The notes below the pieces were generated by a model that was not told where the DNA came from, did no database searches, and was given only the letters and a program-made list of their open reading frames with translations. A stretch of 64,000 bases of DNA from Blastocatellia bacterium. GTDB taxonomy: Bacteria > Acidobacteriota > Blastocatellia > Chloracidobacteriales > Chloracidobacteriaceae. Below, one piece after another: positions 9,959-57,609 of this stretch. The stretch covers positions 1 to 64,000 of the forward strand of contig JAIBAN010000014.1 of NCBI GenBank assembly GCA_019695185.1, given 5' to 3'. The stretch's first letter is position 1. Each line of letters opens with the position of its first letter. Both the position numbers and the translations under genes were made by a program.

Positions 9959-10642
9959 CTACAGATTCAGCAACACCAGTTTGGATTTCTTCTGTTTTTT
10001 GGGAACATCGCGGCGTAGCCAGTAAAAGGTATGAGGAATAGGGGTTTGGGCAATGTCTTCGGGGGTTGTGTGTTTTTCCGCGACATCGGGTGCAAAATCA
10101 ATGTCAATTTTGGAAAAGAGGTGTTGCACGAAAGCAGAACAGAACAACGAACGGTCCCGGTTGAGCAATTTGACCGTTCGTTCCCGTGAACCAATGTGAT
10201 GCAGTGCCAGGAACGTCCCAAATATTTCCCGGAGTGAATACTGGGTATTGACCGCCATCAGGTCGAGCCCGGCACAAATGAGTTGATGGACTTGTGCTTC
10301 TGTCAGGTTGAAATCCATGACCGCCAGCGTGTCAAACTCACTGGCATCATAGTATTTTGAAATCCGGTTTTCCTGAACCCCCAATCGGATATTGCGGCTT
10401 TGAATATCGAGGTCGGATTCCATCACCCAATGTTGGCCGTCCTGCCGGCGGCCTTGAAAGAAAAAGGCATGTCCCCAATCGCTCCAGGTGCGGTCCGGGC
10501 GTTGCCGCCGTTGGGCTCGCCGGATGGCTTTATCAACCAATGTCGGCCCGCCTGCCAGCCCTACACAACCCGGCTTGGCATAAGTTTCCAAAAACTCTGC
10601 ATTTGACAGGTCTTTCACAATCACAACTTGTGGTTTTTCCAT
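9959..10642 (-). CDS. YiiX/YaeF-type permuted papain-like amidase or protease
   Basis: Probable member of the circularly permuted NlpC/P60-like group (YaeF/YiiX). In these the catalytic histidine precedes the cysteine. Here the histidine is in DWGHAFFF and the cysteine in SLFCSAFVQHLF, followed by the TPEDIAQTP motif that resembles the family's 'tPdDl' signature. No signal peptide is seen. The frame stays open to 10717 (TTG). The ATG at 10642 was preferred because the upstream codons overlap the likely selW promoter, but ATGs at 10681 and 10711 remain possible. It is transcribed divergently from selW and its substrate is unknown. Confidence 0.6.
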   Translation of the reverse strand: MEKPQVVIVKDLSNAEFLETYAKPGCVGLAGGPTLVDKAIRRAQRRQRPDRTWSDWGHAFFFQGRRQDGQHWVMESDLDIQSRNIRLGVQENRISKYYDASEFDTLAVMDFNLTEAQVHQLICAGLDLMAVNTQYSLREIFGTFLALHHIGSRERTVKLLNRDRSLFCSAFVQHLFSKIDIDFAPDVAEKHTTPEDIAQTPIPHTFYWLRRDVPKKQKKSKLVLLNL

Positions 10643-10693: not shown

Positions 10694-10730
10694 GCCCGCA
10701 ACTGTTTTCATTTCCAAAGGAGCTTTAAGT

Positions 10731-11042
10731 ATGAAACTGAAGATCGAATACTGCGGTGCTTGAGGGTATTACCCGCGTGCTGTCAGGTTGGCAGAAGAAC
10801 TCAAGTCAAAGTATCAAGCAAATTCCGAACTGGTCAAACTTTCCGGCGGTATCTTTGAAATCTACCGCGATGATCAACTGATTTTCTCCAAGCGTGCGCT
10901 GGGGCGCTTTCCCAATGATGGCGAAATTGCCCGACTGCTCGACGCAGTTGCTTCCGGCATTCCTCTGGCCCAAGCCCAAGCCGAAATTTCCGCCCCCAAA
11001 CCATCCGGTGGATTTTTGTCACGGCTGTTGAACCGCTCCTGA
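10731..11042 (+). CDS. selW: SelW-family (Rdx) selenoprotein with in-frame UGA selenocysteine
   Basis: Small thioredoxin-fold redox protein of 103 aa. From the ATG at 10731 the frame reads MKLKIEYCGA, then TGA (10761-10763), then GYYPRAVRLAEELKSKY without interruption to the stop at 11042. This puts selenocysteine at residue 11 in a CxxU motif that aligns with the YCGAU start of SelW proteins. The rest (IFEIYRDDQLIFSKRALGRFPNDGEI) matches the family's FEV..G..I.SK and GRFP features. AAAGGAG lies 8 nt before the ATG, which supports this start rather than an internal TTG at 10788. A SECIS-like hairpin follows the UGA, and selD is present at 23.9 kb. Ordinary gene callers would report only an 84-codon fragment. 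Function in cells is unclear for the family, probably thiol redox. Confidence 0.9.
10780..10794 (+). ncRNA. Bacterial SECIS-like hairpin
   Basis: CTGTC-AGGTT-GGCAG forms a 5-bp stem (one G-U pair) with a 5-nt loop. The loop begins 22 nt after the UGA and has G at its second position. This fits the known bacterial SECIS rules: a small apical loop with G among the first two bases, 16-37 nt from the UGA. It lies inside the coding region, as expected for bacteria. Confidence 0.7.
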
Positions 11043-11139
11043 CCGGGACTGAGGGCTGTGGTTTTCACATTGGGTTCTGAAAGCACCCATCCAAATGGAG
11101 TGGGTTCCACTCAGTCCTCAGCCCTCAGCCCTCGGTCCT
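11043..11139. repeat. Heptamer inverted-repeat element between selW and the kinase gene
   Basis: The left end has GGACTG-AGGGCTG. The right end has CAGTCCT, CAGCCCT, CAGCCCT, CGGTCCT (11112-11139) running up to the stop codon of the kinase gene. The ends are complementary and the element fills the whole convergent spacer, so it may act as a two-way terminator. Confidence 0.6.
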
Positions 11140-13275: not shown

Positions 13276-14625
13276 TTAGAGCTGAAACCGGTAAATTTTC
13301 GAGACTTTCAAGTCTGTGAATTGCACTTCTTTGACACCCAATGTCCGCAGGACCTGAAGGTTTGAATCCCGACTGATACTCATCCCCTTAAACATGGATT
13401 CTGCGACCTTTTGGTCCATTGAGTCGTGGGAGATCCGGATCACATCCTTTTTCTCACCAATTAATTCGACATGCCCGCCGACTTGGCCAAACGCCTTGTC
13501 GACCGTCTCGGCCAGTTTTTTGCGCACTTCATTAATATCAATGGATTCAATGGAATTGGTCCGCCATACAATTCCCTCCCCGCGAACCCGTGCCTCGTCC
13601 CGTGCGGCGATGATTTCCCCTTTACGACCAAAATTCCATTCATAATCCACATCGGCAATGCCTTTTTGGATGATTTGCAAATTCAGGAGGCTGCCGTCGG
13701 GCAGGAAAGCATAGACCAATACATTGCCATCCTTGTCCCGGTGTTTCCGGACCCGGTTCAGTTCATCCAGCGAAAAACGCAGTTTCTTGCCCTTCACCAG
13801 TTTTTCAACTTCAAGACGGGCTGGTTCACCGCTTTTTCCGGGCTGATTGCGGATCCCAATCAGCGCCAGACTTCCCAGGTCAGGCACTTTGATGACACCA
13901 CAGGATTCAATCTGGTAATTATTATAACTGGCTGCCGGTTCAATCGTCGGCAACGGGTCATCGTCGGATTTGGCTGCCAACGTATCATTGGTGATGACCT
14001 TGGGGTCCTTTTTCTCATTTGGATTGGACGCTGCCACCGCCGTACTTGATTCGGCTTCCAACACAAAGGAGGGTTCCTCGTATGTCTTGCCTTCCCGGTT
14101 GGCTATATCCTCCGGGGATTCGGTCACCTGGCTCCATACGCCCCGTTTATCCCTGCGGGCTTGGTACTGGTCGGCCAGCATGTCATTGCGGACACTGTTG
14201 TAATGAGCCGAATAAACATAAGCCCCGCCTTTCCGAATCACTTCACGGTTTAACATGACCCGTTCCGGCAGCAAATAAACATATGCCAGTAACCGCCCAT
14301 ACTTGTCTCGATTTTTGTAAGGGTAATATTGGCTTTCGAAGGTGATTTCGAAACTCCTCCCGGCCAGGATGGACTCAAGAATCTTCCGCGACTCTTCAGC
14401 ATAAACCTGTCCTGCCTGATCACCATGTTTGAGTTTGGGTGCCACCACGCCAATTAACCGAATAATCCGGCCATCCTGAACCATAAAGGTATCCCCTTCC
14501 AGCACCCGTTTGGCTGTGGTGATGGTTTGGGCGTTTCCGGTTCCTGTCAGCCAGGCACAGAACACCACCAGGAAAGTACAATATTTGAAGACTCGTAAAA
14601 ACAAATGATGGTCACGGTGGTCCAT
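13276..14625 (-). CDS. Secreted protein with two staphylococcal-nuclease-like domains
   Basis: About 449 aa with a signal peptide (YCTFLVVFCAWLTGTGNA). The first SNase-like OB domain reads VLEGDTFMVQDGRIIRLIGV and DKYGRLLAYVYL. A second, more diverged copy (KHRDKDGNVLVYAFLPDGSLLN, GIVWRT) follows a linker of about 70 residues, and a short unknown tail (EVQFTDLKVSKIY) ends the protein. In the first copy the catalytic arginines seem present (RLIG, YGR), but the glutamate of the usual aPE motif is a lysine (VAPKLKHG). Nuclease activity is therefore doubtful. The ATG at 14625 has GAGGAG about 7 nt upstream; an ATG at 14640 falls inside that site. Confidence 0.78.
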   Translation of the reverse strand: MDHRDHHLFLRVFKYCTFLVVFCAWLTGTGNAQTITTAKRVLEGDTFMVQDGRIIRLIGVVAPKLKHGDQAGQVYAEESRKILESILAGRSFEITFESQYYPYKNRDKYGRLLAYVYLLPERVMLNREVIRKGGAYVYSAHYNSVRNDMLADQYQARRDKRGVWSQVTESPEDIANREGKTYEEPSFVLEAESSTAVAASNPNEKKDPKVITNDTLAAKSDDDPLPTIEPAASYNNYQIESCGVIKVPDLGSLALIGIRNQPGKSGEPARLEVEKLVKGKKLRFSLDELNRVRKHRDKDGNVLVYAFLPDGSLLNLQIIQKGIADVDYEWNFGRKGEIIAARDEARVRGEGIVWRTNSIESIDINEVRKKLAETVDKAFGQVGGHVELIGEKKDVIRISHDSMDQKVAESMFKGMSISRDSNLQVLRTLGVKEVQFTDLKVSKIYRFQL

Positions 14626-14784
14626 ACAACTACTCCTCATTGGGGGTCAAAAGAATGTGGGAAATGCTTGGATAAGCTAGGGAGCCTTAATGGCTTTGGT
14701 GTCCGGCACCAGCGCTGCACTTCACGAAAAAGTAGCACATTTGTGGTTTTTGGAAAACCGGGAGGAAAAATTATAGGAAGGAGT

Positions 14785-14869
14785 GAGGCTTGGGAGGCTT
14801 GGGAGGCTTGGGAGGCTTGGGAGTCAGGGAAACGTGGTCACCTTGTCATCTTGTCACCTTGTCACCCTG
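14785..14869. repeat. Two different short tandem repeats side by side
   Basis: Four perfect copies of the 9-mer GAGGCTTGG (14785-14820) are followed by four octamers (TCACCTTG, TCATCTTG, TCACCTTG, TCACCCTG; 14838-14869). They lie in the 290-nt spacer between the nuclease-like and esterase genes. No complementary arm is visible. Confidence 0.75.
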
Positions 14870-14917
14870 GCAGGTTTTCGCCCCCCAGCTCCCAAGACCT
14901 TATTGGCTTCTTTTCAT

Positions 14918-15670
14918 TTAGCTTGGGCCGTATTCGCTAAACAGGCGGGGAATATAAATTTTGAGCATGGACCGCCAGGTTGGCCAGTCATGGTCAATGT
15001 CATGGCCCCACATATCCAACGTGCAGGGGATTCCCTTGCTGCGCAGCAATCCAGCCAAGTCCCTTGAACGTTCCGGTGCTTCATAGGCACCCTGTCCGGT
15101 CGTGATATAGAGTTTCGACCGGTGTCGCAACAAGGGCAGATAGTAATCATCACTCAGGTGCTTGAGGTATTCCATCGGGTTGTTGAAATACACATCATCG
15201 TTGTGGAATCCATCACAATAGCCCCGAATGTCATACGAACCCGACATGGCAATCATGGTATCAAAAATGTCGGGGTGCTTGAGTGCAGTATTGGCCGCAT
15301 GGAATGCGCCAAAACTGGCTCCGGTGGTGGCAATGCCGATGCCGTGGAAGTTGCAGTCGTGTTCGATGAACGGTGCCACTTCGTACCGGATATATCTGTC
15401 ATATTGCGCCTGCCGGCTGGCGCGCTGGGCCGGATGCAATTTGTCATTCATCCAGCTTTGCCGGTTGATGCTGTCAATGGAATAGATTTTCACGATTCCG
15501 GCGTTGATGAAATCCTCCAACACATCCATGACCAGGAACCGTTCATATTCCTCAAAGTCAGCGGCAGCAGTGGGAAACATCAACAAGGGTTTTCCATAAT
15601 ACCCATAAACGGCCAAGGGCATTTCCTGCCCAAGATGCGGGCTGTACCAGCGATGTACTTGTTTGCGCAC
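14918..15670 (-). CDS. Esterase-family alpha/beta hydrolase (esterase D/antigen 85 type)
   Basis: Cytoplasmic hydrolase of 250 aa in the putative-esterase (PF00756-like) group. The nucleophile serine lies in TTGASFGAFHAANT, and a histidine near the end (WGHDIDHDWPTW) fits the triad. No signal peptide is seen. GTG at 15670 is the start because GGAGG sits 7 nt upstream. Related proteins act on acyl thioesters or sugar esters; the substrate here is unknown. Confidence 0.78.
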   Translation of the reverse strand: MRKQVHRWYSPHLGQEMPLAVYGYYGKPLLMFPTAAADFEEYERFLVMDVLEDFINAGIVKIYSIDSINRQSWMNDKLHPAQRASRQAQYDRYIRYEVAPFIEHDCNFHGIGIATTGASFGAFHAANTALKHPDIFDTMIAMSGSYDIRGYCDGFHNDDVYFNNPMEYLKHLSDDYYLPLLRHRSKLYITTGQGAYEAPERSRDLAGLLRSKGIPCTLDMWGHDIDHDWPTWRSMLKIYIPRLFSEYGPS

Positions 15671-23854: not shown

Positions 23855-24907
23855 CTAACCAATTTTATTCTGAACCACTGCAATCCGCCCGGCATTGCCA
23901 GCAGTTACTTGACCAACCACGGACCACGCCGGGGTTTCGCGTTCTTTGAGCCCTGCCACCAGCCGTTCAAGATTCTCAGCCGAAACAACCATCAATAAAC
24001 CGCCGGAGGTTTGGGCATCGCACAGCACCAATTGGGTTTCGGTATCAATGGCGGCATCATAGGCAACCCAGTCAGCCAGAAATCTCCGGTTGGCATGGGT
24101 GCCCCCAGGGGCAATTCCTTCCCGCACGTATTCCCATGCTTCGGATACGACCGGAACCTCTCCCGCCCAAACAGTAGCCGAGCAATGGCTGGCCATTAAA
24201 ATATTCCGTAAATGGCCAAGGAACCCAAAACCGGTAATGTCGGTGGCAGCCTGAACCCCCACTTCCACCATGGCTTCACAAGCCGAGGCGTTCAACGTCG
24301 TCATCAGGTTGATGGCTTTTCGTATGGCTGCATGCGGGTCGCGCCGTTGTTTGGCTGCGGTCGTCAGAATTCCAATTCCCAACGGTTTGGAAAGGACCAG
24401 ATAATCACCCGCCTGGGCCCCGGCGTTTGAAATGATATGCTGCGGGTGAACGATTCCGGTGACAGCCAATCCATAAATCGGTTCATCGCTTTTAATGGTA
24501 TGGCCGCCCACCAGATCAATTCCGGCTCGCCGGGCGGTTTCCGCCCCGCCGCGCAAAATCTCGCCCAGTACCTCAGGTTCCAGCTTGTCATCCGGAAACC
24601 CCACCAGGTTAAGGGCAGTCAACGGTTTGCCGCCCATGGCATACACATCGCTGAGGGCATTGGCCGCCGCCACGGCTCCAAAATCATAGGGTTCATCCAC
24701 CACCGGGGTGAAAAAATCGGTGGTCAAAACCAGAGCGATTTCATCATTCAGTTGATAGACAGCAGCATCATCCGCCGTGGCGCTGCCAACCAGTACGTTG
24801 GGGTCGGTAATCGCGGGCAGATGCTTGAGGAGCGAAAACAAATAACCAGGCGGTTGTTTGGCGGCACATCCGGCGCGTTTGGCAAGTTGGGTCAATTGAA
24901 CGGTCAT
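23855..24907 (-). CDS. selD: Selenide, water dikinase SelD
   Basis: ATP-dependent enzyme making selenophosphate, the selenium donor for selenocysteine tRNA and 2-selenouridine. The active-site motif is RAGCAAKQPP: the catalytic position is an ordinary cysteine, the second cysteine of the E. coli-type GCGCK is replaced by alanine, and the lysine is kept. Other family blocks are TADDAAVYQLN, TTDFFTPVVDEPYDFG, ANALSDVYAMGG, GGHTIKSDEPIYGLAVTG, TDITGFGFLGHL and CDAQTSGGLL. Length (350 aa) is normal. Its presence supports reading the UGA in the SelW-like gene as selenocysteine. selA, selB and selC are not in the window. Confidence 0.95.
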   Translation of the reverse strand: MTVQLTQLAKRAGCAAKQPPGYLFSLLKHLPAITDPNVLVGSATADDAAVYQLNDEIALVLTTDFFTPVVDEPYDFGAVAAANALSDVYAMGGKPLTALNLVGFPDDKLEPEVLGEILRGGAETARRAGIDLVGGHTIKSDEPIYGLAVTGIVHPQHIISNAGAQAGDYLVLSKPLGIGILTTAAKQRRDPHAAIRKAINLMTTLNASACEAMVEVGVQAATDITGFGFLGHLRNILMASHCSATVWAGEVPVVSEAWEYVREGIAPGGTHANRRFLADWVAYDAAIDTETQLVLCDAQTSGGLLMVVSAENLERLVAGLKERETPAWSVVGQVTAGNAGRIAVVQNKIG

Positions 24908-28132: not shown

Positions 28133-28588
28133 GACGGCGGACGGCGGACTGGGCTTGACACGTGTCCTGTGACATCATCGTTGGGTGACATGTTCCGCTT
28201 TCCACTCGCAGTCCGCACTTGGTGCCGTAAAGAATTGTTAAAACCGGGAAATACCTTTCTACCTGCTGCCAATAACCCCGGCCCTCAGTCCTCAGTCCTC
28301 AGCCCTCAGCTCTGCCCTCAAGCCGTAAAGAATTGTTAAAACAGGGAACGTCCTCTTGTTCACTACGTTTCGTCTGCTTTAATTCCTACGAAACCGGGAT
28401 TTGTTCCACCCTCAACTGATGCAGGAAGTCAAACCGAAACATATCCCTCGCATTTACACATTGATTTATCCTGAAGTTGATCTTTTCAAACCGGATTGTT
28501 GCGTATTCCCAGTCAAGGAAACCTTTCTGGCGCAAGGCACAACGCAGGTTCAGAAAACTCAAACCAAACTGATTTCTTGGAGGCGGTT
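28133..28588. other. 456-nt repeat-rich spacer after hemG
   Basis: It contains two direct repeats (28224-28250 and 28322-28348, 27 nt with one mismatch), four heptamers CCCTCAG/TCCTCAG (28282-28309), and a GGCGGAC-type heptamer start right after the hemG stop. No gene is supported. Confidence 0.55.
28224..28348. repeat. 27-nt direct repeat pair
   Basis: GCCGTAAAGAATTGTTAAAA plus seven more bases occurs twice (28224-28250, 28322-28348) with one mismatch. The heptamer tract lies between the copies. The copies may mark the ends of a duplicated or inserted stretch. Confidence 0.75.
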
Positions 28589-37956: not shown

Positions 37957-38090
37957 TTTTGAGTTTTGAGTTTTGAGTTTTGAGTTGAAGAAGATTTGAG
38001 GAAAAAGCTGCTTTAGGTTTTTGAGCTTTTTCCACTCAAAATTCAAAACCCAAAACCCAAAACCCAAAACTCAAAACTCAAAACTCAAAA
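37957..38090. repeat. 134-bp hairpin of heptamers with nested inverted repeat
   Basis: Four perfect TTTTGAG units (37957-37984) and eight CTCAAAA/CCCAAAA/TTCAAAA units (38035-38090) form the outer arms. Inside lies a perfect 10-bp inverted repeat GGAAAAAGCT / AGCTTTTTCC (38000-38009 and 38024-38033). The element fills the spacer between the S8 and S53 genes. Confidence 0.85.
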
Positions 38091-43070: not shown

Positions 43071-43198
43071 CATTTGCGATTTGCCATTTGCGAAATGGAA
43101 ATCGGTTGATTTTCCTGTTTGGGATTTTCAAACCAAGTCGAGCCTTCCTCTCAAAAACATATTGCTGACCTCAGGTGGCAAATCGCAAATCGCAAATG
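43071..43198. repeat. Heptamer inverted-repeat element between ATP-grasp and radical SAM genes
   Basis: CATTTGC, GATTTGC, CATTTGC (43071-43091) pair with GCAAATC, GCAAATC, GCAAATG (43178-43198). The right arm ends 4 nt before the start codon of the radical SAM gene, so the hairpin could affect its translation. Confidence 0.75.
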
Positions 43199-44700: not shown

Positions 44701-44764
44701 GGTAAATGGTAAATGGTTTGAATCACCTCGAAACCGCCATTTACCATTTACCATTTACCATTTA
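44701..44764. repeat. Heptamer hairpin overlapping a stop codon
   Basis: Two GGTAAAT units (44701-44714) pair with four CCATTTA units (44737-44764). The last unit contains the TAA stop (44762-44764, minus strand) of the glycosyltransferase gene. The element separates two convergent genes and may be a bidirectional terminator. Confidence 0.75.
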
Positions 44765-45934
44765 CAAACTGATGATTTCGGGTTCAGCCGGAGCTGGTTT
44801 AATCAGTGACGAAATCTCTTGGACAATACGCTGGGTGGCATCGGGCCGGCCCAGTCCGGCAGCCGCCTGTTTCATGGCAATATATTCATCAGGTGAGGCC
44901 AGCAGACGCTGCAAAATCGGCACAATATCGTTGACGCGGCGGAGCATGATGCCTGCCTGATGTTCTTCCAGCAGGTCACCGGTTCCGGCTTCCTGCGGCA
45001 TGGGCGGGGTGATTCCATCCGCAATAATCGGCAGGTGCGAAGCCAGTGCCTCAAAGGTCGTCAGCCCCCCCAGTTTTGAAACCATCAGGCTGGAAGCACT
45101 CATCAACTGGTCCATCCGGTCAGTATATCCAATGACTTTGACCGGGAATTTGGACCGTTTGGCCACCTGTTGGGCGTCCTTCTCAAGCTGCTGGTTGCGA
45201 CCAGCCAGAAAAATCAATTGCAGGTCCAGGTCGGCTTCGACCAGTGAGGAGTAAATTTTGGGGATATTGCCTCCCCCCACCCAACCGGCATTGACAAACA
45301 GGGTGAATTTTTCCGGGTCCAGCCCCAGTTCCAGTCGGGCAATCGCCGGGTCCCGTTCGCTGACATCCTGGAACTTGGGATGAATCGGCATTCCGCAAAT
45401 GCGGATTTGATCTTCAGAAATGCCAAGCGAAAGCATTTCCTCTTTGGCTTTCTGGTGCGCCACAATGTAGAGGTTCACCTGGTCCCCACGCCAACCGCTC
45501 CATGAATTGCCGCACGGGTCGGTCACCACTGTCACCAACGGGATTTTACCGGTCAGTTTCAGTTCTTCCAAAATCCGCCCGATACAATATTGAATCATTG
45601 GGTGGACCGAAACGATGACGTTGGGGCAATGCCGGTCAATCAGTTGGGTAAAATATTTGTTGGCGTGTTTATAAACAATTGGCCAGCGGTCGGGATGAAA
45701 CCGGTTGATGAACCAGTGATAGTGACGAACATACTTTTGTTGGTTTTTCAGCAGAAAATTATACAAACCGGCCATGCGGCGGGTCAGAGAATGGCTTTCT
45801 TCCAAAGCATGGGCAATGTGGACCAACGAGGCCACTCCACCAGCCACCTTTCCCACGCCTGCTTCGATGGCGCGGGCGGCACTGGTATGACCTCCGCCGG
45901 TATCCGAGGTCAGAATCAAAATTTTATTTGGCAC
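44762..45934 (-). CDS. MGDG-synthase/GT28-type glycosyltransferase
   Basis: 390-aa GT-B glycosyltransferase. The N-terminal domain starts KILILTSDTGGGHTSAARAIEAG, the diagnostic block of monogalactosyl/diglucosyl-diacylglycerol synthases. The C-terminal nucleotide-binding part has FVNAGWVGGGNIPKI, VIGYTDRMDQLMSASSLMVSKLGGLTTFEAL and PQEAGTGDLLEEHQAGI. It would attach a sugar from a UDP donor to diacylglycerol or a lipid-linked acceptor at the inner membrane. GTG start at 45934, with AGGAG about 12 nt upstream. Confidence 0.85.
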   Translation of the reverse strand: MPNKILILTSDTGGGHTSAARAIEAGVGKVAGGVASLVHIAHALEESHSLTRRMAGLYNFLLKNQQKYVRHYHWFINRFHPDRWPIVYKHANKYFTQLIDRHCPNVIVSVHPMIQYCIGRILEELKLTGKIPLVTVVTDPCGNSWSGWRGDQVNLYIVAHQKAKEEMLSLGISEDQIRICGMPIHPKFQDVSERDPAIARLELGLDPEKFTLFVNAGWVGGGNIPKIYSSLVEADLDLQLIFLAGRNQQLEKDAQQVAKRSKFPVKVIGYTDRMDQLMSASSLMVSKLGGLTTFEALASHLPIIADGITPPMPQEAGTGDLLEEHQAGIMLRRVNDIVPILQRLLASPDEYIAMKQAAAGLGRPDATQRIVQEISSLIKPAPAEPEIISL

Positions 45935-49524: not shown

Positions 49525-49617
49525 AATTGAGAATTGAGAATCGTCACATGAGGTTTCCAACTGTTTTCTGTCAGCCGTCGGAATTCAAATCAGGTTCTCA
49601 ATTCTCAATTCTCAATT
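49525..49617. repeat. Heptamer hairpin that encodes the end of kdsB
   Basis: Two AATTGAG units (49525-49538) pair with three CTCAATT units (49597-49617). The right arm, read on the minus strand, supplies the codons for the last residues (RIEN) and the TGA stop (49605-49607) of kdsB. Confidence 0.75.
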
Positions 49618-50405
49618 CTTAACAGATTTCGCACCTTTTCCGCGTCTTCAGGAGTGTCCACTCCCGGTGCGGAATGTTCCACCGGTACAACCTTAATCCG
49701 GTGGCCATAATACAATGCCCGCAATTGTTCCAACGATTCCATTTTTTCCAGCGGAACCGGTGGCAACTGCGCCAGTTTCAAAAGCAGTTCCCGCCGATAT
49801 ACATACAGCCCGGTATGTTTGAACCATAACGGAACCTGCTGTGGCTGCCACTCCGCCAATGATTGGGGGTCACGTACAAAGGGAATCACCGAACGGGAGA
49901 AATACAAGGCAAACCCTGCCTGGTCGCACACCACTTTGACAATATTGGGATTGGCCGCCATTTCCGCTGCCGGAAGCGGCTCGCAGGTAGTGGACATTTC
50001 CACCGCCGGATTTTCCAATAACGGAGCAATCGCCGCATCAATCGTGGATGGAGCAATGAGCGGCTCGTCGCCTTGCAGGTTGACAATAATTTCCTCGGAA
50101 AGCCGGGCGGCAACCTCAGCCAGCCTATCGGTTCCGGTCGCATGGTTGGGGTCGGTCAACACCACTTCGCCGCCAAAATTCCGAACTGCTTTGACAATAC
50201 GGTCGTCGTCCGTGGCCACAATCACCCGCTGCACATGCGTCGCCTGCCGGGCGCGCTCATACACCCTGTGAATCATGGTTTGGCCGCACAAATCCACCAG
50301 CGGCTTGCCGGGAAAACGACTGGACGCATACCGGGCCGGAATCAGTGCGACAACAGCAGGTTTTGCAAGGGTTTTGATTGTGAGGTGAGTATCCGTGTGT
50401 TCCAC
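49605..50405 (-). CDS. kdsB: 3-deoxy-manno-octulosonate cytidylyltransferase KdsB
   Basis: Activates Kdo as CMP-Kdo for lipopolysaccharide core synthesis, so the cell should have an LPS outer membrane. Blocks: VVALIPARYASSRFPGKPLVDLCGQTMIHRVYERA, RVIVATDDDRIVKAVRNFGGEVVLTDPNHATGTDRLAEVA, IIVNLQGDEPLI and LYVYRRELLLKLAQLPPVPLEKMESLEQLRALYYGHRIKVV. About 18 residues precede the usual start of the family, so GTG 50405 may be too far upstream. The C terminus runs into a repeat element. Confidence 0.96.
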   Translation of the reverse strand: MEHTDTHLTIKTLAKPAVVALIPARYASSRFPGKPLVDLCGQTMIHRVYERARQATHVQRVIVATDDDRIVKAVRNFGGEVVLTDPNHATGTDRLAEVAARLSEEIIVNLQGDEPLIAPSTIDAAIAPLLENPAVEMSTTCEPLPAAEMAANPNIVKVVCDQAGFALYFSRSVIPFVRDPQSLAEWQPQQVPLWFKHTGLYVYRRELLLKLAQLPPVPLEKMESLEQLRALYYGHRIKVVPVEHSAPGVDTPEDAEKVRNLLRIEN

Positions 50406-57498: not shown

Positions 57499-57500
57499 GG

Positions 57501-57609
57501 AGGACTGAGGACTGAGGACTGAGGACTGACTTCAAATCATCAATGCAGGTCAACAGCCAATTGTGCCTGTCGTGAAAAACTCAGTCCCCAGTTCTCAGCC
57601 CTCAGTCCT
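57501..57609. repeat. Heptamer inverted-repeat element
   Basis: Four perfect AGGACTG units (57501-57528) directly after the receptor stop pair with CAGTCCC, CAGTTCT, CAGCCCT, CAGTCCT (57582-57609). The right arm ends 7 nt before the ATG of the ankyrin gene. Confidence 0.8.

Follow-up and report, generated by a model that had tools for sequence, protein, structure and literature searches.

A predicted SelW-like selenoprotein gene with an in-frame UGA in a Blastocatellia bacterium

Introduction

The abundance of SelW-like selenoproteins in marine bacteria was reported in 2005-2008, when they ranked first in abundance among the families of the Sargasso Sea set (PMC1088965) and proved to be one of the most widespread families in GOS (PMC2398784). 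They are also known from completed bacterial genomes; a 2006 survey lists Acidobacteria with three selenoprotein families, SelW not being named for Acidobacteria in the part of the text consulted (PMC1794560). In Campylobacter jejuni, Ribo-seq and proteomics have demonstrated full-length SelW (PMC11955535). The SelW genes of Epsilonproteobacteria carry the same type of hairpin as the one described below, with an invariant loop G and covariation (PMC4607533).

Here, we analyzed a window of 64,000 nucleotides (the whole stretch of DNA under study, positions 1 to 64,000 of contig JAIBAN010000014.1) from a Blastocatellia bacterium, in which an original prediction had placed a SelW-like selenoprotein with an in-frame UGA. 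We conclude that the locus is almost certainly a bacterial SelW-like selenoprotein gene whose UGA at 10761-10763 is decoded as selenocysteine (Sec). The prediction is borne out by the family match, the decoding machinery, the conserved TGA, selection downstream of it and a covarying bacterial SECIS (bSECIS) hairpin.

Results

The reading frame and its product

The features at the start of the gene are as follows.

10731..11042, + strand: gene for a predicted SelW-like selenoprotein of the Rdx family; 103 residues, the 11th being Sec; terminated by its own TGA at 11040-11042
10716..10722, + strand: Shine-Dalgarno-like AAAGGAG, 8 nt 5' of the ATG, read directly from the sequence
10752..10763, + strand: redox motif CGAU (CxxU), from the codon of Cys8 to that of Sec11; each of these two positions is always Cys or Sec
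10761..10763, + strand: UGA predicted to be read as Sec, with TGA at the same codon in relatives

The frame is interrupted only once, by the TGA that falls at the U of CxxU, as had been predicted; the CGAU motif occupies residues 8-11. With this TGA read as Sec, the frame starts MKLKIEYCGA-U-GYYPRAVRLAEELK and the complete 103-residue product is MKLKIEYCGAUGYYPRAVRLAEELKSKYQANSELVKLSGGIFEIYRDDQLIFSKRALGRFPNDGEIARLLDAVASGIPLAQAQAEISAPKPSGGFLSRLLNRS. The ribosome binding site, which had been called good, is indeed present before the ATG. Without recoding, a mechanical listing of open reading frames gives only an 84-residue frame that begins at a TTG at 10788. A functional product could in principle start at this listed TTG, with the upstream codons untranslated, but such a product would be missing both strand 1 and the CxxU pair, features that all aligned relatives keep, and the good ribosome binding site sits before the ATG at 10731. 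We regard a TTG start as extremely improbable.

Scanning the window for other CxxU, UxxC or CU/UC read-throughs gave no other conserved-looking protein candidate, as judged by eye. Of the TGA read-throughs in the window that fit such a motif, the gene at 10731 alone is known to match a family.

Family and fold

The read-through protein matches Pfam Rdx PF10262 (E 1.4e-18; 67.2 bits against a cut-off of 22.6), NCBIfam TIGR02174 CXXU_selWTH (56.6 against 34.2 bits) and NCBIfam NF041051 SelT/SelW/SelH (89.3 against 88 bits). The proposed alignment to SelW/Rdx families thus holds above all three curated cut-offs, and the sequence places the predicted product in the Rdx/SelW family. A profile built from the homologues matches the SelW-related structures 3dex, 2fa8, 2obk, 2oka, 2ojl and 2p0g, as well as C17orf37/MIEN1 (2ljk) and mouse SelW (2npb). 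A scan of genome contigs with the single protein returned one distant relative only, a Syntrophus MAG.

A single-sequence AlphaFold model (pLDDT 68, moderate confidence) has the element order E-H-E-E-E-H expected for the family, and in the PDB it matches SelW-related proteins best. In this model, of moderate confidence, CxxU follows the first strand of a thioredoxin-like beta-alpha-beta-beta-beta-alpha fold, as in the family. The product is probably a small thiol/selenol oxidoreductase.

The UGA is conserved and the codons after it are under selection

Twelve of the 147 relatives have the protein, and exactly one TGA is present in 12 of the 13 matches; the remaining match (L024) has CxxC instead. 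Across the phylum, an Rdx match was found in 115 of 396 genomes, with one TGA in most of the matches listed. Eight of the best phylum matches (L033-L040) form a CxxC subgroup that lacks the stop, and nearly all the other listed matches have one TGA, except for a few partial matches. In 32 distinct Sec-type sequences, from many genera, the TGA is the last position of C-x-x-U. Ten phylum genomes (G147, G189, G208, G313, G338, G361, G367, G382, G438 and G444) have two Rdx matches each, mostly both with one TGA, and may hold a second, more divergent Sec-type paralogue.

We examined selection on the 92 codons after the TGA in three family-level relatives that represent three genera, the window genome, L019 and L020. 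Pairwise differences at codon positions 1/2/3 were 33/20/53, 37/28/55 and 42/28/59, and Nei-Gojobori dN/dS was 0.16, 0.29 and 0.25 in the three pairs; these ratios are rough, as dS is near saturation. Their direction is clear, and the pattern of substitution indicates that the region after the TGA is kept as coding sequence under purifying selection. The UGA stands where homologues have Sec or Cys and is followed by maintained coding sequence, as in selenoprotein genes. An ordinary stop in related strains, followed by unconserved codons, would have argued against the original prediction; instead, the TGA is kept and dN/dS lies at 0.16-0.29.

These data bear on whether the gene is a pseudogene, a Cys-type Rdx gene in which the TGA arose by nonsense mutation or sequencing error and in which translation stops after 10 residues. 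The phylum does contain a Cys-type subgroup. However, the TGA recurs at the same codon in the 32 sequences, the codons downstream of it are under purifying selection, and the hairpin described below is conserved beyond what the protein requires. The comparative data make an ordinary stop very unlikely, and we give it only a minimal chance.

The SECIS hairpin

A candidate hairpin lies directly downstream of the UGA.

10780..10794, + strand: predicted bacterial SECIS hairpin, stem 10780-10785/10789-10794, loop GGU at 10786-10788, first G invariant

The hairpin, CUGUCA-GGU-UGGCAG, is separated from the UGA by a 16-nt spacer, so that its first base is the 17th after the UGA, and its loop opens with G. 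Both its place just past the UGA and the G of its small apical loop are those expected of a bSECIS in a bacterial selenoprotein gene. Taken alone, the hairpin is no more stable than shuffles of the same composition (z = -0.14, +0.15 and -1.15 for the different stretches that were folded). The probability of six pairs arising by chance given this protein is 0.046, and an Rfam search up to E 5 found no SECIS family match here. Because its folding energy does not set the single sequence apart, the support for the predicted hairpin is comparative, and convincing only through the homologues.

Among 27 indel-free homologues, 92% of the cells are paired. Changes on both sides were seen in three of the six pairs (C-G to U-A at two and G-C to U-G at one). 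None of 500 shuffles reached the observed number of paired cells or the covariation score, and sliding the partners brought pairing down to 27-55%. Because the hairpin sits inside coding sequence, we also used a synonymous-codon null, drawn 2000 times under each protein; in 32 sequences, 175 of 192 pairs were observed, whereas the null averaged 129 and never exceeded 148. All 32 Sec-type sequences have G as the first base of the loop. This G appears to restrict the encoded residue to R, S, G or W, because Ser at this codon is always AGT and never TCN. Five homologues (L025, L026, L028, L029 and L030) have one extra codon between Sec and the hairpin, giving a 19-nt rather than a 16-nt spacer, and their hairpin moves with it, pairing when shifted by 3 nt. 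CxxC homologues, a separate subgroup, form only 2-4 of the six pairs. The SECIS-like hairpin with a G-bearing loop thus stood up in its position and its loop G, and it covaries among homologues, but the strength that had been implied for the lone hairpin did not stand up.

Sec machinery in the genome

We examined the assembly (8.33 Mb, 222 contigs, 99.7% complete) for the Sec machinery. One component is in the window.

23855..24907, - strand: selD, selenide,water dikinase (Cys form, GCAAK), TIGR00476, 385 bits

The gene, whose active-site residue is Cys, lies about 12.8 kb from the selenoprotein gene, in agreement with the 13 kb first given. Elsewhere in the assembly, outside the window contig, are selA (E 4.8e-164) and selB (E 2.5e-115), and another contig carries a tRNA-Sec above the gathering score, which ARAGORN calls tRNA-SeC with anticodon tca. 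With selA, selB and selC all found, their absence, which would have told against the prediction, does not arise, and the complete set of selA, selB, selC and selD is that of a bacterial selenoprotein genome. Since selA is nearly universal in the relatives (above the cut-off in 134/147), its presence here was expected and is weakly informative. SelA homologues can moreover occur without Sec decoding, as stated in a study of Epsilonproteobacteria (PMC4607533), and it is therefore the joint presence of selB and selC that counts.

Near-cognate misreading of the UGA, or its decoding as a different amino acid such as Trp or Cys, is an alternative. Low-rate UGA read-through occurs in many bacteria, but against this alternative stand the full Sec machinery in the genome and a covarying hairpin that has an invariant loop G and the position typical of bacterial SECIS elements. 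We consider this alternative extremely improbable. From this combination of genes and signals we infer that this organism inserts Sec. SelD, whose gene lies in the window, would make selenophosphate, and SelA would convert seryl-tRNA-Sec to selenocysteyl-tRNA. SelB would then carry the selenocysteyl-tRNA and bind the hairpin at 10780-10794, allowing the ribosome to read the UGA at 10761-10763 as Sec and to continue to the stop at 11040. The product would take the thioredoxin-like fold of an Rdx domain and carry CxxU as its redox pair.

The window genome's family also includes a small-genome genus (G002 and G004-G009, several in two contigs) in which selA is kept and a SelW match is found in 0/7 genomes. 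Because selA is kept while SelW is absent in all seven, SelW has been lost or was never held in this genus, while part of the Sec machinery remains.

Neighbourhood and window repeats

A minus-strand ORF at 9962-10642, divergent from the selenoprotein gene, matched nothing in Pfam or NCBIfam at E 0.001. In G003 the same divergent gene adjoins upstream, so part of the neighbourhood is conserved.

Also present in the window are short tandem arrays of 7-base units, at least eight of them, at 11110-11133, 28283-28320, 37957-37986, 38034-38090, 43178-43197, 44737-44765, 49595-49619 and 57500-57529. Their units are CTCAGCC, CCTCAGT, TTTTGAG, ACTCAAA, GCAAATC, CCATTTA, TTCTCAA and GAGGACT, and the CCTCAGT/CTCAGCC type is common to three of the arrays. 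They resemble heptanucleotide repeats of the kind known from cyanobacteria. Adjoining 9-bp (GAGGCTTGG) and 8-bp (GTCACCTT) tandem arrays lie at 14785-14876, between ORFs 13276-14640 and 14918-15670.

A C-terminal extension

The only local peculiarity of the gene is its 3' end.

10962..11039, + strand: C-terminal extension past the Rdx domain, ends GGFLxRLL, common to three genera of the family

The tail has about 25-30 residues in the three family-level members (the window genome, L019 and L020), ends in GGFLxRLL or similar, and is absent from the other Sec-type homologues that were translated to their stops. It is modelled with low confidence by single-sequence AlphaFold. Gained in this family, a conserved tail of short helices with a GGFLxRLL end might conceivably let the redox domain dock at a membrane or on a protein partner and so define a clade-specific SelW variant, although we find this rather doubtful.

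Discussion

This selenoprotein gene is a clean and well-supported case in which a frame-based gene caller would leave an 84-residue fragment. Sec-type SelW is widespread in this phylum, as the Rdx matches in the sampled genomes, mostly with TGA, indicate. A literature search for Chloracidobacterium and selenocysteine returned nothing relevant, and the SelW-like selenoprotein literature that we searched held no specific description of the clade of the window member. The gene is useful for annotation and leaves the understanding of the SelW family and of Sec decoding unchanged. The degree of surprise first attached to it was overstated, given that the SelW-like family is a classic one among bacterial selenoproteins (PMC1088965, PMC1794560, PMC2398784). 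Apart from this and the strength implied for the lone hairpin, the original prediction held at each point that could be checked.

How does the gene compare with known SelW systems? Like the bacterial SelW-like selenoproteins of the Sargasso Sea, GOS, Geobacter, Desulfotalea and others (PMC1088965, PMC2398784, PMC1794560), it combines CxxU, an Rdx/SelW domain and a small apical SECIS with a loop G; unlike them, the window member is extended at its C terminus by about 25 residues. The SelW gene of Campylobacter jejuni (CJnc60 transcript, PMC11955535) likewise has an in-frame UGA and was previously unannotated, and the window protein matches the NCBI model NF041051 (SelTWH_Campy) above its cut-off. 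However, C. jejuni belongs to another phylum and its protein has 80-81 residues, without the extension. Epsilonproteobacterial SelW genes, also from another phylum and missed in annotation, share a hairpin of 5-6 bp just past the UGA with an invariant loop guanosine and covariation (PMC4607533). The Rdx structures PDB 2fa8, 3dex, 2obk, 2oka and 2p0g and mouse SelW (2npb), compared by sequence and fold only, are of the same family by profile and have the same fold. Because SelW-like selenoproteins and this type of SECIS have already been described, the gene adds one member, correctly predicted yet ordinary, to a long-known and widespread bacterial selenoprotein family.
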